A DNA stretch of 26,115 bases from a virus. The stretch is from positions 1-26,115 of IMG/VR virus record IMGVR_UViG_3300025280_000141. One strand, given 5' to 3'. Shown here one piece after another: positions 7,579-24,185 of the stretch (positions are counted from its first letter, which is position 1; the number at the start of each line of letters is the position of its first letter). The notes under the pieces are model-generated. The model saw only the letters and a program-made list of their open reading frames with translations. It did no database searches and had not been told where the DNA came from. The position numbers were made by a program, and so were the translations under genes.

Positions 7579-8439
7579 ATGGCACAGACAGCAACTACGG
7601 GTAATCTAGAGAATGCTCAAAGGATCATAATCTCGACTGCTCGTTACACAGAGGAGCATAATGCTCCAGCGATGAACCTGATTGAGCAATTCACATTGCC
7701 CAAGGGTTCAAAACAGGTCACTGTTCCCAAGGTGGGACAGATGGACATGAGCGACCTCGTTGATGGTCAGGACATCATAGACGAGGAAGACATCGGGATG
7801 ACCACGGTAGACCTCACAGCGGCTGAGGTCGGAGCCAAGATCATCATCACTGACAAGCTGGCACGGCAGAGTGCACAGAATGTGTTCTCCATTATAGGGA
7901 GACAGCTCGGTGACGGCATGGCGCGCAAGAAGGACAAGGACGTACTGGCTCTCTACAGCGGATTCAGCACCGACATTGGTTCAGCGGGTCGCGCCATGAG
8001 CCTTGCAAACGTGTCCGCAACTGTGGCGTATGCCAAGGGTAACAGGTTCGGGTCACAGGTCTACATCGTCCAGCACCCATTCGCGGTGTGGGACATTGCC
8101 AACACGGCAGTGACGGCATCGACCACATATCCCGTACCCGCAGGGTGGTCCGCTGACCTGCTCGGCAACTTCTTCAGTGGGCTAAGACCCATTAACGGAG
8201 TGCCGATATTCGAGGATGGAAATATCAGCATTGACTCCAGTGACGATGCTATAGGCGTTTGCGCTGACAAGTCTGCCTTAGCCGTACTCAAGAGTGTGGA
8301 TACTAGGACAGAGCGACAGAGAGACGCATCCATGAGAGCGACCGAGGTCGTGATCACCGCAGACTATGGCGTATTCGAGCTTGATGACAGCAAGGGTGTT
8401 GCTCTTACTCTGGATGCAGCGACACCAGCAACCAGCTAG
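7579..8439 (+). CDS. Major capsid protein (HK97-fold type)
   Basis: This 286-residue protein has the features of compact phage major head proteins: an N-terminal arm (about residues 1-40), a segment around LPKGSKQVTVPKVG that fits the E-loop, then LTAAEVGAKIIITDKLARQS and a long helix with the DGMARKKDKDVLALY motif that matches the spine helix. The later part (YIVQHPFAVWDI, then VPIFEDGNI) fits the A/P-domain strands. The protein builds the icosahedral shell. It follows a scaffold-like gene, precedes a probable decoration gene, and has a strong ribosome site (TAGGAGGTG). I saw no fused protease or long cleavable N-terminal delta domain, consistent with a separate scaffold. The fold assignment is from recognition, not from a search. 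Confidence 0.85.
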   Translation: MAQTATTGNLENAQRIIISTARYTEEHNAPAMNLIEQFTLPKGSKQVTVPKVGQMDMSDLVDGQDIIDEEDIGMTTVDLTAAEVGAKIIITDKLARQSAQNVFSIIGRQLGDGMARKKDKDVLALYSGFSTDIGSAGRAMSLANVSATVAYAKGNRFGSQVYIVQHPFAVWDIANTAVTASTTYPVPAGWSADLLGNFFSGLRPINGVPIFEDGNISIDSSDDAIGVCADKSALAVLKSVDTRTERQRDASMRATEVVITADYGVFELDDSKGVALTLDAATPATS

Positions 8440-20788: not shown

Positions 20789-21127
20789 ATTTATGATCGT
20801 GTTATCTCGTATCCCTCGCTCGTATTGGAGCGTGTAACTGACGTGCAGTGCGTCATCATCCAACAGCAACCCAACGGCTACGAGGCCGTCGAGGTAACCC
20901 TTCATGCTTGACAGCAAATTATCAAGATCACGCTTCCTCTTGTCCTTGGCTATCCATGTAATGGTTATATGTGCCGTATCATAGGGACGGGCTGGTTTGC
21001 CCTGTGCCATGACCAAGGCAGCGGCCTCCTGTTTAGCTGCCGCCTTGGCCTTATATAGAGCCATGTAGTGTAGTCTCTTGTTGGGAGACAGGTCAGGATC
21101 AGGGAGGTGTCCCAGTTCAATTTTCAT
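20771..21127 (-). CDS. rusA: RusA-family Holliday-junction resolvase
   Basis: This enzyme cuts four-way DNA junctions, resolving recombination or replication intermediates before packaging. The 118-residue length is close to the usual 120. The family core is visible: KRDLDN (D67, D69, N70), K76 in the following helix, YLDGL (D80), and LLLDDDAL (D90, D91). These are the acidic metal-binding and basic residues of RusA. I chose the ATG at 21127, which has GGAGG 11 bases upstream and overlaps the previous gene by 11 bases; a longer frame to 21217 adds residues with no homology. It lies in a recombination cluster with a RecB-like nuclease, an SSB-like protein and a RecA-fold ATPase. Confidence 0.85.
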   Translation of the reverse strand: MKIELGHLPDPDLSPNKRLHYMALYKAKAAAKQEAAALVMAQGKPARPYDTAHITITWIAKDKRKRDLDNLLSSMKGYLDGLVAVGLLLDDDALHVSYTLQYERGIRDNTIINVEELG

Positions 21128-21503
21128 GCCCAGTGAATACCTCCAGCAATGTCTTGGGCTGGTCTGGTGCAAACGCCTTGGGTAGCCGTGGCTTCTGTGG
21201 GTTGCGAGGCAGCCCAAGGGATGTACGAAGCTGACGCACCCTCTCCCGGCTGATACCCAGCATAGTAGCTATGGCTGTATCAGGCTCACCGGCAGCGTGC
21301 GCCTCTCGCACGATATCTGTGTGGTTGTTATGCCACAGGGGCTGCCACTCGGCGATGTCCTGCATGATCAGGTACAGCCTGTTGTGTCGCTTGAAGGAGC
21401 GCAGGGACCCGGTGCGTATCCTGCTGGTTAAAGTCTCTTGGTTGACACCAGACTCCTCTGCTGCCTCGGTCAGGGTTAATAAATTTATTTTATTTTTTTC
21501 CAT
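21117..21503 (-). CDS. Two-HTH DNA-binding protein
   Basis: This 128-residue protein starts at the ATG at 21503, with AGGAGAGG upstream; a longer frame to 21521 is less likely. It has two helix-turn-helix-like parts. Residues about 10-40 (TLTEAAEESGVNQETLTSRI) resemble an excisionase/MerR-like HTH, and about 66-95 (VREAHAAGEPDTAIATMLGI then SRERVRQLRTSLG) resemble a sigma-region-4 or resolvase-type HTH. The C-terminus is Pro/Lys-rich. It probably binds DNA in regulation or recombination. It overlaps both neighbours (14 and 11 bases), so it is co-translated with the TubC-like gene and RusA. Its first codons are very AT-rich. Confidence 0.65.
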   Translation of the reverse strand: MEKNKINLLTLTEAAEESGVNQETLTSRIRTGSLRSFKRHNRLYLIMQDIAEWQPLWHNNHTDIVREAHAAGEPDTAIATMLGISRERVRQLRTSLGLPRNPQKPRLPKAFAPDQPKTLLEVFTGHEN

Positions 21504-21912
21504 TATCCTCTCCTGTGGCACAGGGTGTGCACCGTATCACTGCGTCATCCCTGCATTTGCCGGGGTCACACAGACATCCCTGACTATCAGGGTGTAGGGC
21601 TAGGTACATCTTCTCTACGTTGACCCAGTTATCCATCGTGTCATTGAGTGCGTTGTGGAGGTTGATGAGATGTTGCTGTGTCCTGTATAGCCACTGGCGC
21701 ACCGCCACTCCGTCTTCCATCATGGCCAGTACGTTCTGCTTATTCGCAGCCAGAGCACGGAAGACGATATGGAGGTTAGGGTCATCATGCTTCTCAGCCT
21801 GTGACATTGAGAGCTTGTCACCATTTCTGGCTAGCACAAGGCCATGCGCTTGGGCAAGGCTCAGGAGGCTAGCCGCTTTGTCCAGTTCATCCCAATTATT
21901 TAAGCTTCCCAA
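21490..21912 (-). CDS. TubC-like docking/Cys-cluster protein
   Basis: The preferred TTG start at 21912 has TAGGAG eight bases upstream and overlaps the ATPase stop; a GTG at 21957 is an alternative. The 140-residue product begins with a TubC N-terminal-like docking module (about residues 13-67: LLSLAQAHGLVLARNGDKLS, later NKQNVLAMM). A helical middle and a Cys cluster follow (C113, C115, C120, C128, C131) that could bind zinc. TubC-like modules mediate protein-protein contact and occur beside replication proteins of mobile elements. Here the gene sits between the RecA-fold ATPase and an HTH gene, so it may recruit one to the other. The assignment is by pattern and needs a profile search. Confidence 0.5.
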   Translation of the reverse strand: MGSLNNWDELDKAASLLSLAQAHGLVLARNGDKLSMSQAEKHDDPNLHIVFRALAANKQNVLAMMEDGVAVRQWLYRTQQHLINLHNALNDTMDNWVNVEKMYLALHPDSQGCLCDPGKCRDDAVIRCTPCATGEDNGKK

Positions 21913-23210
21913 TCTGTTGCTCCTACCGGGGGAATGGGTACACTCTGTGCCGCCCACTCCTCCTCCTCAGTCTTGATAGTCTCATAGAATCCCTTGCCAA
22001 CCACCTTGAACATATCCTTGTTGGAGCTTAGCTCCTTGCTGATATGGGTGCTGCCCTTGCCCAGAGCCTCTGCAATGTCTACAACAGACTGGGGGGCTGA
22101 GCACTCCTCTAGGTAGTTCTTAATGCGCTCCCTTACTGTCATCTCGCTCTCAAGCCGGGTCTTCTTAACATCACGCCGGGTGAACGTGGCCGTACCCTCG
22201 TCGTTGTCGAACCGGAGGCTCCACCCTAGGGGGTGGATCAGCCTGCTGTTGTTAGCCTTCTCATGGAGCAAGGCGAATTCAAACTCCTCGTCCTGTTCAC
22301 GCTGACTCTTCTTGACGTGGTACACCAGCCTGCTTGCATTGCGTTTGTAGACAGATCCGAACAGCACGTCAGACTTATTGGTGTGGTCAATGCAGAGGCT
22401 TGTCACTCCAAGGCTTCTGATAGCCCCGAATAACTTGAGCACCACCTCTGCGCTCTCTGGTTCACCCATGCAGGCAGACCCCAGAGAGTCACAAACCACG
22501 AAGGAGATACCCCTGTCCAGTATGATTTTCCTGACCACTGCTATGTCACTGGACAACCCCTGAGTCATGTACTTATACCATATGCCTGACTCTGTGTACT
22601 CAGACAGGCCAAGCCCCTTGCGTATCATGGCTAAACGGGACCCGATTTCCTGAAGGTCTGTCTCCCAATCCAGATACAATACCCTCGCCTGTTCCACCTC
22701 CAGCCCCGATGCACTCATGCCCTCGTGGACTAGGACACTCAGGTACTGGCCCAGCCATGACTTGCCAGAGGAGCCCTCTCCGTAGATCAGGGTGGGGTGC
22801 CCTGCCTGCACTAGCGGCTTGATCAGCCAGTGTCCCTCCGGGGCGGCCTTTATCTGTCCCACCATCTCTATCTCCGGGGCACCCCGGCGGTACGCATCGG
22901 TAGCTGCTACGCATAGCTGGCCTACGATATGTTTCCAACTGAGGCTCTCGTCCTCATCCTCGAGGCTCTTAATGTACGGCGCAGAGGGGTTGCTGAGGTT
23001 TACCCTGCGCCGCAGGACGTGTCCTGACGCGTTGGAGTTGGGTCGCTCCGAGGTGAACTCAACCTCAGCGGAGAGGCTGAGGTCAGGCATGACCTTGAAC
23101 AGGGACACATCAGCCTGAACGTGGAGGTTGGGCCAGTACAATTTGTACTGACCCCCTGATCCCTCGATGTCAAATGTGTTAAGCGGTGTTGACGGATCTT
23201 GGTCTAACAT
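21900..23210 (-). CDS. RecA-fold ATPase (AAA_25/RepA-like) with C-terminal winged helix
   Basis: This 436-residue ATPase of the RecA/DnaB-like fold probably acts as a helicase or helicase-related motor in replication or recombination. The N-terminal 120 residues are unassigned. Walker A is GEGSSGKS (144-151), and a Walker-B-like strand with an acidic end is VLYLDWE (177-183). A second acidic strand is FVVCDS (237-242), and CIDHTNK (273-279) fits the sensor region. Residues about 357-412 (VRERIKNYLEECSAPQSVVD then ALGKGSTHISKEL) look like a winged helix for DNA binding. The ATG at 23210 has GGAGG upstream and overlaps the preceding gene by 32 bases. AAA_25/RepA-type helicase is the best reading; a strand-exchange RecA is less likely. 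Confidence 0.75.
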   Translation of the reverse strand: MLDQDPSTPLNTFDIEGSGGQYKLYWPNLHVQADVSLFKVMPDLSLSAEVEFTSERPNSNASGHVLRRRVNLSNPSAPYIKSLEDEDESLSWKHIVGQLCVAATDAYRRGAPEIEMVGQIKAAPEGHWLIKPLVQAGHPTLIYGEGSSGKSWLGQYLSVLVHEGMSASGLEVEQARVLYLDWETDLQEIGSRLAMIRKGLGLSEYTESGIWYKYMTQGLSSDIAVVRKIILDRGISFVVCDSLGSACMGEPESAEVVLKLFGAIRSLGVTSLCIDHTNKSDVLFGSVYKRNASRLVYHVKKSQREQDEEFEFALLHEKANNSRLIHPLGWSLRFDNDEGTATFTRRDVKKTRLESEMTVRERIKNYLEECSAPQSVVDIAEALGKGSTHISKELSSNKDMFKVVGKGFYETIKTEEEEWAAQSVPIPPVGATDWEA

Positions 23211-23466
23211 CTACCCCTCCACTGTGATTCTGTTTCGCCGGGGCTGGTGGTGGCGGTGGTGGCGGTGCCTCTCTCCGTGGCCTCCGCATCCCACGGTACT
23301 CCAGCTCCAGCTCCTCTTCTAGCAATTCGTTGCGCCTCTCCAGTGCCAACACCTCGGCCTGCCGCAGTGCAAGGTGCTGGCAGTCCATGCACAGGTACTC
23401 CGACCGGGTGCCGTGCATTCCCCCACACAAAGGGATACCCATGCGTCCACCTCTAGGCGTTCTCAT
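23179..23466 (-). CDS. Cys-motif and coiled-coil protein
   Basis: This 95-residue protein has its ATG sharing one base with the nuclease stop (TGATG), and AAGGGGGTG upstream. The N-terminus holds Cys14, His18, Cys26 and Cys29 (CGGMH and CMDC), a candidate zinc site. A charged helix, probably a coiled coil, follows (about 33-58: RQAEVLALERRNELLEEELE). A run of seven prolines lies at 68-74. The tail overlaps the ATPase start by 32 bases. It could link nuclease and ATPase or bind DNA; no family is recognised. Confidence 0.6.
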   Translation of the reverse strand: MRTPRGGRMGIPLCGGMHGTRSEYLCMDCQHLALRQAEVLALERRNELLEEELELEYRGMRRPRREAPPPPPPPAPAKQNHSGGVDVRPRSVNTA

Positions 23467-24185
23467 CACTCACCCCCCTTCAGGAATGCCTTGGGGCGAG
23501 TAGCCCTGTATACCTGTAGCGATGCCTTGAACATTTCTTTGGCTACAGGGATGTCCACCCACTGCCACTCAACGTCCCTAGTGTCACGGGCTACATACAC
23601 GATGGCAGCCTGTGTGATAACAGGCCGCCCCATGTACTCCAGAGCCAGTAGGTAGCCACCCAACTGTGACGCGTGGCCTACCTGTCCTAAGTTCTTCTTC
23701 TGCTTCCCCTTGCTATCGAGGAAGTTCGCAGATTTCCAATCGAACAGGGTTGGCACCCCATCGACAATGCCGATGCTATCACAGGTGCCACCATAGCCAA
23801 GGCCACCGTGGTAGACCATCTCCTCTGTTACGACCCACCAGCCCACCCTCTCACCTACCGAGGCGTACCAGTTGGAGTACAGCATGGACGGGTCTTTGGG
23901 ATGCTCCTTGTTGGCAATGTAGTACTCTATCTCTGAGTGGAGTTGCGTACCCAGCGCACCAGCCTCGTCCCGTGCTGTCACGAACCTGTCGCGCTCTCCG
24001 GTGGCAATGTAATGGTCAATGCCCCAGTAGATGAGGCTGTCACCACCCCGGTCTACGAATCCACTCACCGTGCTACAGCTAGGCATGGGTACCGCCGGGT
24101 CTACCAGAGGATCGCCATCCACATAGTACAGGTGCTGGGAATTCCTACCCACCTTTTTTGTTTCCATCCTGACTGTGGCACTCAT
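23466..24185 (-). CDS. RecB/Cas4-like PD-(D/E)XK exonuclease
   Basis: This 239-residue nuclease of the RecB/lambda-exonuclease type probably resects DNA ends for recombination. The motifs are in order: an early STVSGFVDRGGDSLIYWGID region (38-57), GTQLHSEIE with His83 and Glu85/Glu87, a YGGTCDSIGIVDG strand with Asp136, DWKSAN giving Asp149 and Lys151 (the D-x-K of the active site), and QLGGYLLALE with Gln174 and Tyr178 (motif IV). No iron-sulphur Cys set of the Cas4 kind is visible. The ATG at 24185 overlaps the SSB-like gene stop by four bases; an inner Met at 24167 is possible. It works in the same cluster as SSB-like, RusA and RecA-fold genes. Confidence 0.8.
   Translation of the reverse strand: MSATVRMETKKVGRNSQHLYYVDGDPLVDPAVPMPSCSTVSGFVDRGGDSLIYWGIDHYIATGERDRFVTARDEAGALGTQLHSEIEYYIANKEHPKDPSMLYSNWYASVGERVGWWVVTEEMVYHGGLGYGGTCDSIGIVDGVPTLFDWKSANFLDSKGKQKKNLGQVGHASQLGGYLLALEYMGRPVITQAAIVYVARDTRDVEWQWVDIPVAKEMFKASLQVYRATRPKAFLKGGE

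Follow-up and report, generated by a model that had tools for sequence, protein, structure and literature searches.

A TubC-like docking domain and a cysteine cluster in a phage protein encoded directly behind a RecA-fold ATPase

The protein encoded in the last 6 kb of a 26115-base IMG/VR virus record (the whole of this stretch was analysed and is referred to below as the window) has an N-terminal β-hairpin docking domain of the TubC/EpoB/Kj12 type followed by a long helix and a cysteine cluster, and its gene lies directly behind that of a RecA-fold ATPase in diverse phage contigs. The fold, the homology, the gene pairing and the conserved cysteines were all obtained computationally, and both the fold and the pairing are well supported. 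We think it reasonably probable that a docking pair of the sort used in biosynthetic assembly lines here joins a phage replication or recombination ATPase to a probable zinc adaptor. In this proposal the docking gene would encode a small adaptor whose N-terminal hairpin domain grips the flexible C-terminal end of the upstream-encoded ATPase. As in the Kj12 megasynthase complex, the ATPase tail would extend the hairpin by one strand, lying next to its second strand, while the long helix would present a four-cysteine, probably zinc-holding cluster that may contact DNA or another replication or recombination protein. The coordinates of the features discussed are given in Table 1.

Table 1. Features of the window, with strand and the evidence for each.
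Feature	Position	Strand	Evidence
Major-head-protein match	7579-8439	plus	phrog_267, E 4.5e-9
HTH_17 plus sigma70-region-4-like HTH protein, 134 aa, next after the docking gene	21117..21521	-	Pfam
Docking/Cys-cluster protein, about 140 aa, likely TTG start	21490..21912	-	ORF; overlap start as in homologues
Cys cluster C-x-C-x4-C-x7-C-x2-C, probable metal site	21520..21576	-	Alignment
Long helix; tryptophan present in most homologues	21595..21711	-	Alignment, AlphaFold2
β-hairpin docking (TubC/EpoB/Kj12-like) domain, α-β-β-α-α	21715..21894	-	AlphaFold2, VIA-align, PDB profile
Second hairpin strand (KLSMSQ), predicted partner-peptide site	21799..21816	-	AlphaFold2; Kj12C binding strand as described in PMC6195595
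Overlap, 13 nt, of ATPase stop and docking-gene start	21900..21912	-	ORFs
RecA-fold AAA_25 (RepA-like) ATPase, 436 aa	21900..23210	-	Pfam AAA_25, AlphaFold2, VIA-align
ATPase C-terminal tail ending T-D-W-E-A, predicted docking peptide	21903..21950	-	Low pLDDT; tail and charge tests

Fold of the docking protein and its cysteine cluster

An earlier note, made from the DNA letters, had placed a reading frame at the position listed in Table 1, which is indeed present, and had likened the N-terminus of its product to the docking domain of TubC. AlphaFold2 applied to ten aligned sequences produced an α-β-β-α-α domain followed by a 39-residue helix and a short cysteine region, with a mean pLDDT of 78.6 (H22–37, E40–45, E48–53, H62–71 and H73–81 in the 155-residue numbering; the docking domain occupies residues 7–66 of the 140-residue protein). 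When this model was compared with known structures by VIA-align, the best seven rows, at Z 7.0–4.7, were EpoB, Kj12C, AerJ, Kj12B, Kj12A, EpoB again and the enacyloxin condensation protein, and the eighth, at Z 3.7, was unrelated; Z values under 8 are weak by themselves, yet the list consists purely of docking domains down to this step. A Foldseek search with the same model returned nothing at E 0.001 (best E 0.12). The sequence comparison agrees with the structural one, as a profile made from an 18-row alignment (A4) and run against 177635 PDB sequences had docking domains as all six of its best matches, at E 0.0023–0.32 (Kj12B 6ewt, 0.0023; AerJ 8aqq, 0.024; EpoB 5t7z, 0.038; Kj12C 6ewu, 0.1; Kj12A 6ews, 0.15; and the Kj12C–Kj12B construct 6ewv, 0.32). 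A second alignment (A7) placed docking domains in six of the seven best positions, with an unrelated chain third. The TubC-like N-terminus of the earlier note is thus borne out by the predicted fold, the VIA-align ranking and the PDB profile matches.

The search with the TubC_N family (PF18563) that the note had proposed gave a divided answer, being negative for the window protein and positive, over cut-off, in records of two of six relatives. TubC_N was the best Pfam match for 8 of the 16 docking proteins scanned singly (L059, L060, L067, L073, L077, L134, L178 and L190, with up to 25.9 bits in L190) and was absent from the scans of the window protein, L045, L047, L050, L052, L068, L081 and L136. 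In the record-wide search the L190 and L073 records scored 27.5 and 26.7 bits against a cut-off of 26, and the same L073 and L190 proteins fell just below it in hmmscan, at 25.0 and 25.9 bits. No record passed the cut-off in two further sets (0/3 and 0/5), nor did any of 14 control genomes in the record-wide search. We conclude that the window protein is a divergent homologue of proteins scoring at or close to the TubC_N threshold. No PKS/NRPS catalytic or carrier domain was found in it over cut-off, and the helix and cysteine cluster stand in their place.

Five C-terminal cysteines, also reported in the earlier note, are present in the window cluster (GCLCDPGKCRDDAVIRCTPC), but only four of them are conserved, with cysteines 1, 3, 4 and 5 kept in 17 of the 18 rows of A7 (which omits L132 as containing an unread base) and the second variable. 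These four are conserved potential metal ligands in 17/18 homologues, and their spacing in most rows, C-x4-7-C-x7-14-C-x2-C, suits a single metal site. The note had named a missing TubC-like fold and unconserved cysteines as grounds for abandoning its reading, and we found the fold predicted and four of the five cysteines retained. The A7 row lacking the cysteine region is L050, where the docking protein (L050:5251-5559) ends before the tryptophan and the cysteine part, either by true loss or through an error of sequencing, and the ATPase is intact; the tryptophan preceding the cluster is missing from both L050 and L136.

Pairing with the ATPase gene and the surrounding operon

Plus-strand genes fill the left three quarters of the window and minus-strand genes the last 6 kb. 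The minus-strand order begins with unassigned small proteins, an HTH_17-like protein (below cut-off) and an unassigned 237-aa protein, continues with an exonuclease match (phrog_298, E 1.1e-16), a small Cys-containing protein, the AAA_25 ATPase and the docking/Cys-cluster protein, and ends with an HTH/sigma70-region-4-like protein and a RusA-type resolvase match (phrog_34, E 8.4e-17). The earlier note had also drawn attention to an adjacent RecA-fold ATPase, and this neighbour is confirmed by an AAA_25 match at E 6.3e-18 (65.5 bits against a Pfam cut-off of 27) and by a core close to RAD51, RadA and RSF1010 RepA in VIA-align (Z about 21). The RecA-fold core is held in common with the RSF1010 RepA helicase and the RadA/RAD51 recombinases, to which the phage ATPase, as modelled by AlphaFold2, adds a β-rich N-terminal domain, a C-terminal winged-helix-like region (so labelled from its order of helices and strands) and a flexible tail in which the final two pLDDT blocks are 56.

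The longer mechanical reading frame of the docking gene starts from a GTG at 21957 and encodes 155 aa. We regard the TTG at 21912 as the likelier start, since the resulting 13-nt overlap with the ATPase stop matches the ATG starts of L017 and L021, and since internal ATGs in L006 (7299) and L007 (7314) give the same overlap; the mechanical reading frames of L006 and L007 likewise start 58 nt before the end of the ATPase gene. With the likely starts taken, the two genes overlap by 4–22 nt in the relatives (28 in L050); this arrangement probably couples their translation and would favour joint production of the partners.

Single-sequence searches with the window protein found nothing useful beyond near-identical contigs. 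It received neither a PHROG nor an NCBIfam assignment (DUF2240 and TIGR04222 were weak and far below cut-off) and had no match among phage records, and PHROG scans of 10 + 10 homologues returned no convincing family. The relatives were reached through the ATPase: in L006–L010 a small protein with the same cysteine pattern overlaps the ATPase end, and an alignment of five such proteins (A1) used as a query found further loci, again beside the ATPase. The set of homologues was then enlarged by further ATPase scans and one docking-protein query. The docking gene lies directly behind the ATPase in 102 of the 199 loci with an ATPase reading frame, many of which are repeat contigs, and six more loci (L060–L062 and L127–L129) have an adjacent docking gene whose mechanical reading frame starts upstream. 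When the ATPases were clustered at 70% identity, 18 of the 72 clusters had the docking gene in this position and 54 did not; these final counts, like those of the tails below, exclude L035, L065, L130 and L111, in which the ATPase comes within 200 nt of the locus end, and L081, with its non-adjacent docking gene, is counted among the 54. Starting from the docking protein instead, the ATPase was directly upstream in 24/24 loci (22 contigs), most of which were also reached with an ATPase query. Linkage of the docking protein to a RecA-fold ATPase therefore holds across diverse phage contigs, and we consider the pairing well supported.

Scanning genomes with the docking profile gave no match, and with the ATPase profile gave four MAG loci, none with an adjacent docking match (one of the four, L035, is truncated close to the end of the ATPase). 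The four genomes carrying these loci, one of them a Chloroflexi MAG, gave no match to the docking profile, nor did 301 genomes from the phylum of that MAG; as a check, the profile found four of four virus records, of which one (L060) is a row of the alignment and three are not. Relatives used as tblastn queries against phages or plasmids yielded weak matches at most, and the best place for L010, in Roseobacter phage CRP-403, was dropped as no ATPase is annotated in the 6559 bases examined. The L032 and L033 ATPases were set aside as too distant and lacking a docking gene, and a helicase-loader or primase label was rejected for want of a match.

The exonuclease and RusA-type matches together with the AAA_25 ATPase, and a CHC2 protein in a relative, make a role for the operon in replication or recombination, as suggested in the earlier note, plausible. 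The latter protein (L082:40-525; DnaG-type CHC2 zinc finger, PF01807, 57.5 bits) is encoded by a gene that runs into the beginning of the ATPase gene, and its presence favours a role in replication in L082. We note that a small protein with paired N-terminal cysteines is encoded just upstream of the ATPase in the window (23179-23469), L010 (5754-6017) and L017 (3489-3758), as judged by eye. In several relatives the gene following the docking gene has a sigma70-region-4-like HTH segment at its end and differs in its N-terminal part (window 21117-21521, by Pfam; L008:3909-4274, L010:7756-8283 and L017:5446-5931, by eye).

The ATPase tail and the second hairpin strand

In the Kj12 complex, as described in PMC6195595 and PMC9113145, the upstream subunit's five C-terminal residues (L-R-G-E-I) run along the second hairpin strand, with strand residue 24 paired with tail position -2, strand residue 28 paired with tail position -4, and the terminal isoleucine buried. 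We took the charge rule from these papers and the strand numbering from a HMMER alignment to Kj12B, and omitted L050, which lacks the Cys part, and L081, in which the gene is not adjacent. Among the first 17 pairs, which had been inspected by eye before the formal test, the Kj12 rule gave 13 opposite and no like charges (permutation p 0.0004–0.0006), and among their 13 representatives 8 opposite and none like (p 0.009–0.01). Five later pairs, found after the rule had been set and with strand letters read by eye, gave 3 opposite and none like (p 0.30 alone). All 22 rows gave 16 opposite and none like (p 0.00006, from a permutation that ignores relatedness), and 17 representatives gave 11 and none (p 0.003, still naive as to common descent). 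Each of ten control registers gave a weaker result, but in both sets, of 17 and of 13 rows, two of them still had p below 0.05. The charge rule of Kj12 thus fits the pairing of docking protein and ATPase tail at the level of sequence.

The C-terminal residue of the ATPase is I or V in 9 of the 18 docking-bearing clusters and in 6 of the 54 others (Fisher p 0.0012, relatedness ignored); an initial version of this test, still including L035, L065 and L111, had given 8/12 and 7/41. The later docking-bearing members contributed one such end in five, and the window tail itself ends in A. A conserved tail tryptophan was at one point considered as a binding residue and dropped because it tracks the overlapping start codon, its position following the overlap length. 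L008 and L077 have tails ending I-D-T-E-V and I-D-V-E-F, respectively, and in neither does the reading-frame relation force a tryptophan.

Such a by-product raises the question of whether the whole tail pattern merely reflects the overlap, with its start codon and ribosome site, in which case the genes would be coupled and the proteins need not dock through the tail. The behaviour of the tryptophan speaks for this, and the acidic tail residues may likewise reflect a ribosome-binding site, but a simulated null for overlap coding puts I or V at the end in about 10% of cases, against 9/18 observed, and would not predict covariation with charges in the hairpin, and we regard this explanation as quite unlikely. 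A docking domain that is real but has another partner, either dimerising or binding some other phage or host protein, is possible though on the unlikely side. The TubC domain is described in PMC6195595 as a homodimer with the hairpin forming part of the dimer face, the tail test is weak in the five held-out pairs, and in L081–L083 a docking-like gene is separated from the ATPase; against this stand the position directly behind the ATPase in 18 clusters and all 24 loci reached with docking queries, and the 16-to-0 charge complementarity with the ATPase tail. Finally, that the resemblance to docking domains is due to chance, and the protein simply a small Cys-rich DNA-binding phage protein, is hardly credible given that the sequence profile and the structure both point to the same small family, even with no TubC_N match for the window protein and a best Foldseek E of 0.12. 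Docking of the ATPase tail on the hairpin is the reading that we retain, and it proposes a likely partner site, the C-terminus of the ATPase, that the earlier note had not named.

The separated genes (L081:2029-2517 and L082:2533-3021) encode docking-like Cys proteins. Each immediately follows a RusA-like gene and lies three genes downstream of the ATPase, whose tail there ends GGMNE.

Relation to known docking systems

The phage domain shares its order of fold elements, N-terminal position and pattern of hairpin residues with Kj12A/B/C, EpoB, AerJ and TubC (TubC_N, PF18563), as well as having a candidate C-terminal partner peptide on the protein encoded upstream. It differs from these in belonging to a phage protein without a condensation, cyclisation or other biosynthetic domain, where it is followed by the long helix and cysteine cluster and encoded in a DNA-metabolism operon. 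That phages carry the domain is not in itself new, because a BFVD entry already names it in an uncultured phage protein: A0A6J5MQD0 (uncultured Caudovirales phage, 160 aa), of similar length and called a 'TubC N-terminal docking domain-containing protein', was row 32 of our Foldseek listing at E 0.55, and it is through this row that it was compared.

In the portions of the literature available to us, β-hairpin docking domains are described solely as connectors within PKS/NRPS-type biosynthetic pathways. The matches listed for TubC-type domains concern cyanobacterial genome mining, fungal peptides and cyanobacterial megasynthases, and among the matches listed, from a literature lying mostly outside the subscription journals, there was neither a paper on docking domains in phages nor an earlier report of the conserved ATPase pairing and tail rule. 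The occurrence of such a domain in a gene pair conserved among phages points to a peptide-docking module of more general use, which may predate the assembly lines or extend beyond them. The observation also provides a functional hypothesis for an unnamed family of phage proteins, with exact residues predicted on both partners, and protein engineering gains a new candidate docking pair.

Short acidic C-terminal peptides also recruit partners in the case of SSB, whose C-terminal tip does so. Similar ends in PF, mostly acidic, are found in ATPases of 8 of the 55 clusters filed without an adjacent docking gene (L063, L093, L113, L115, L116, L117, L160 and L174; the 55 include L060, which bears a docking gene and ends WTI) compared with none of 17 docking-bearing clusters (Fisher p 0.18).
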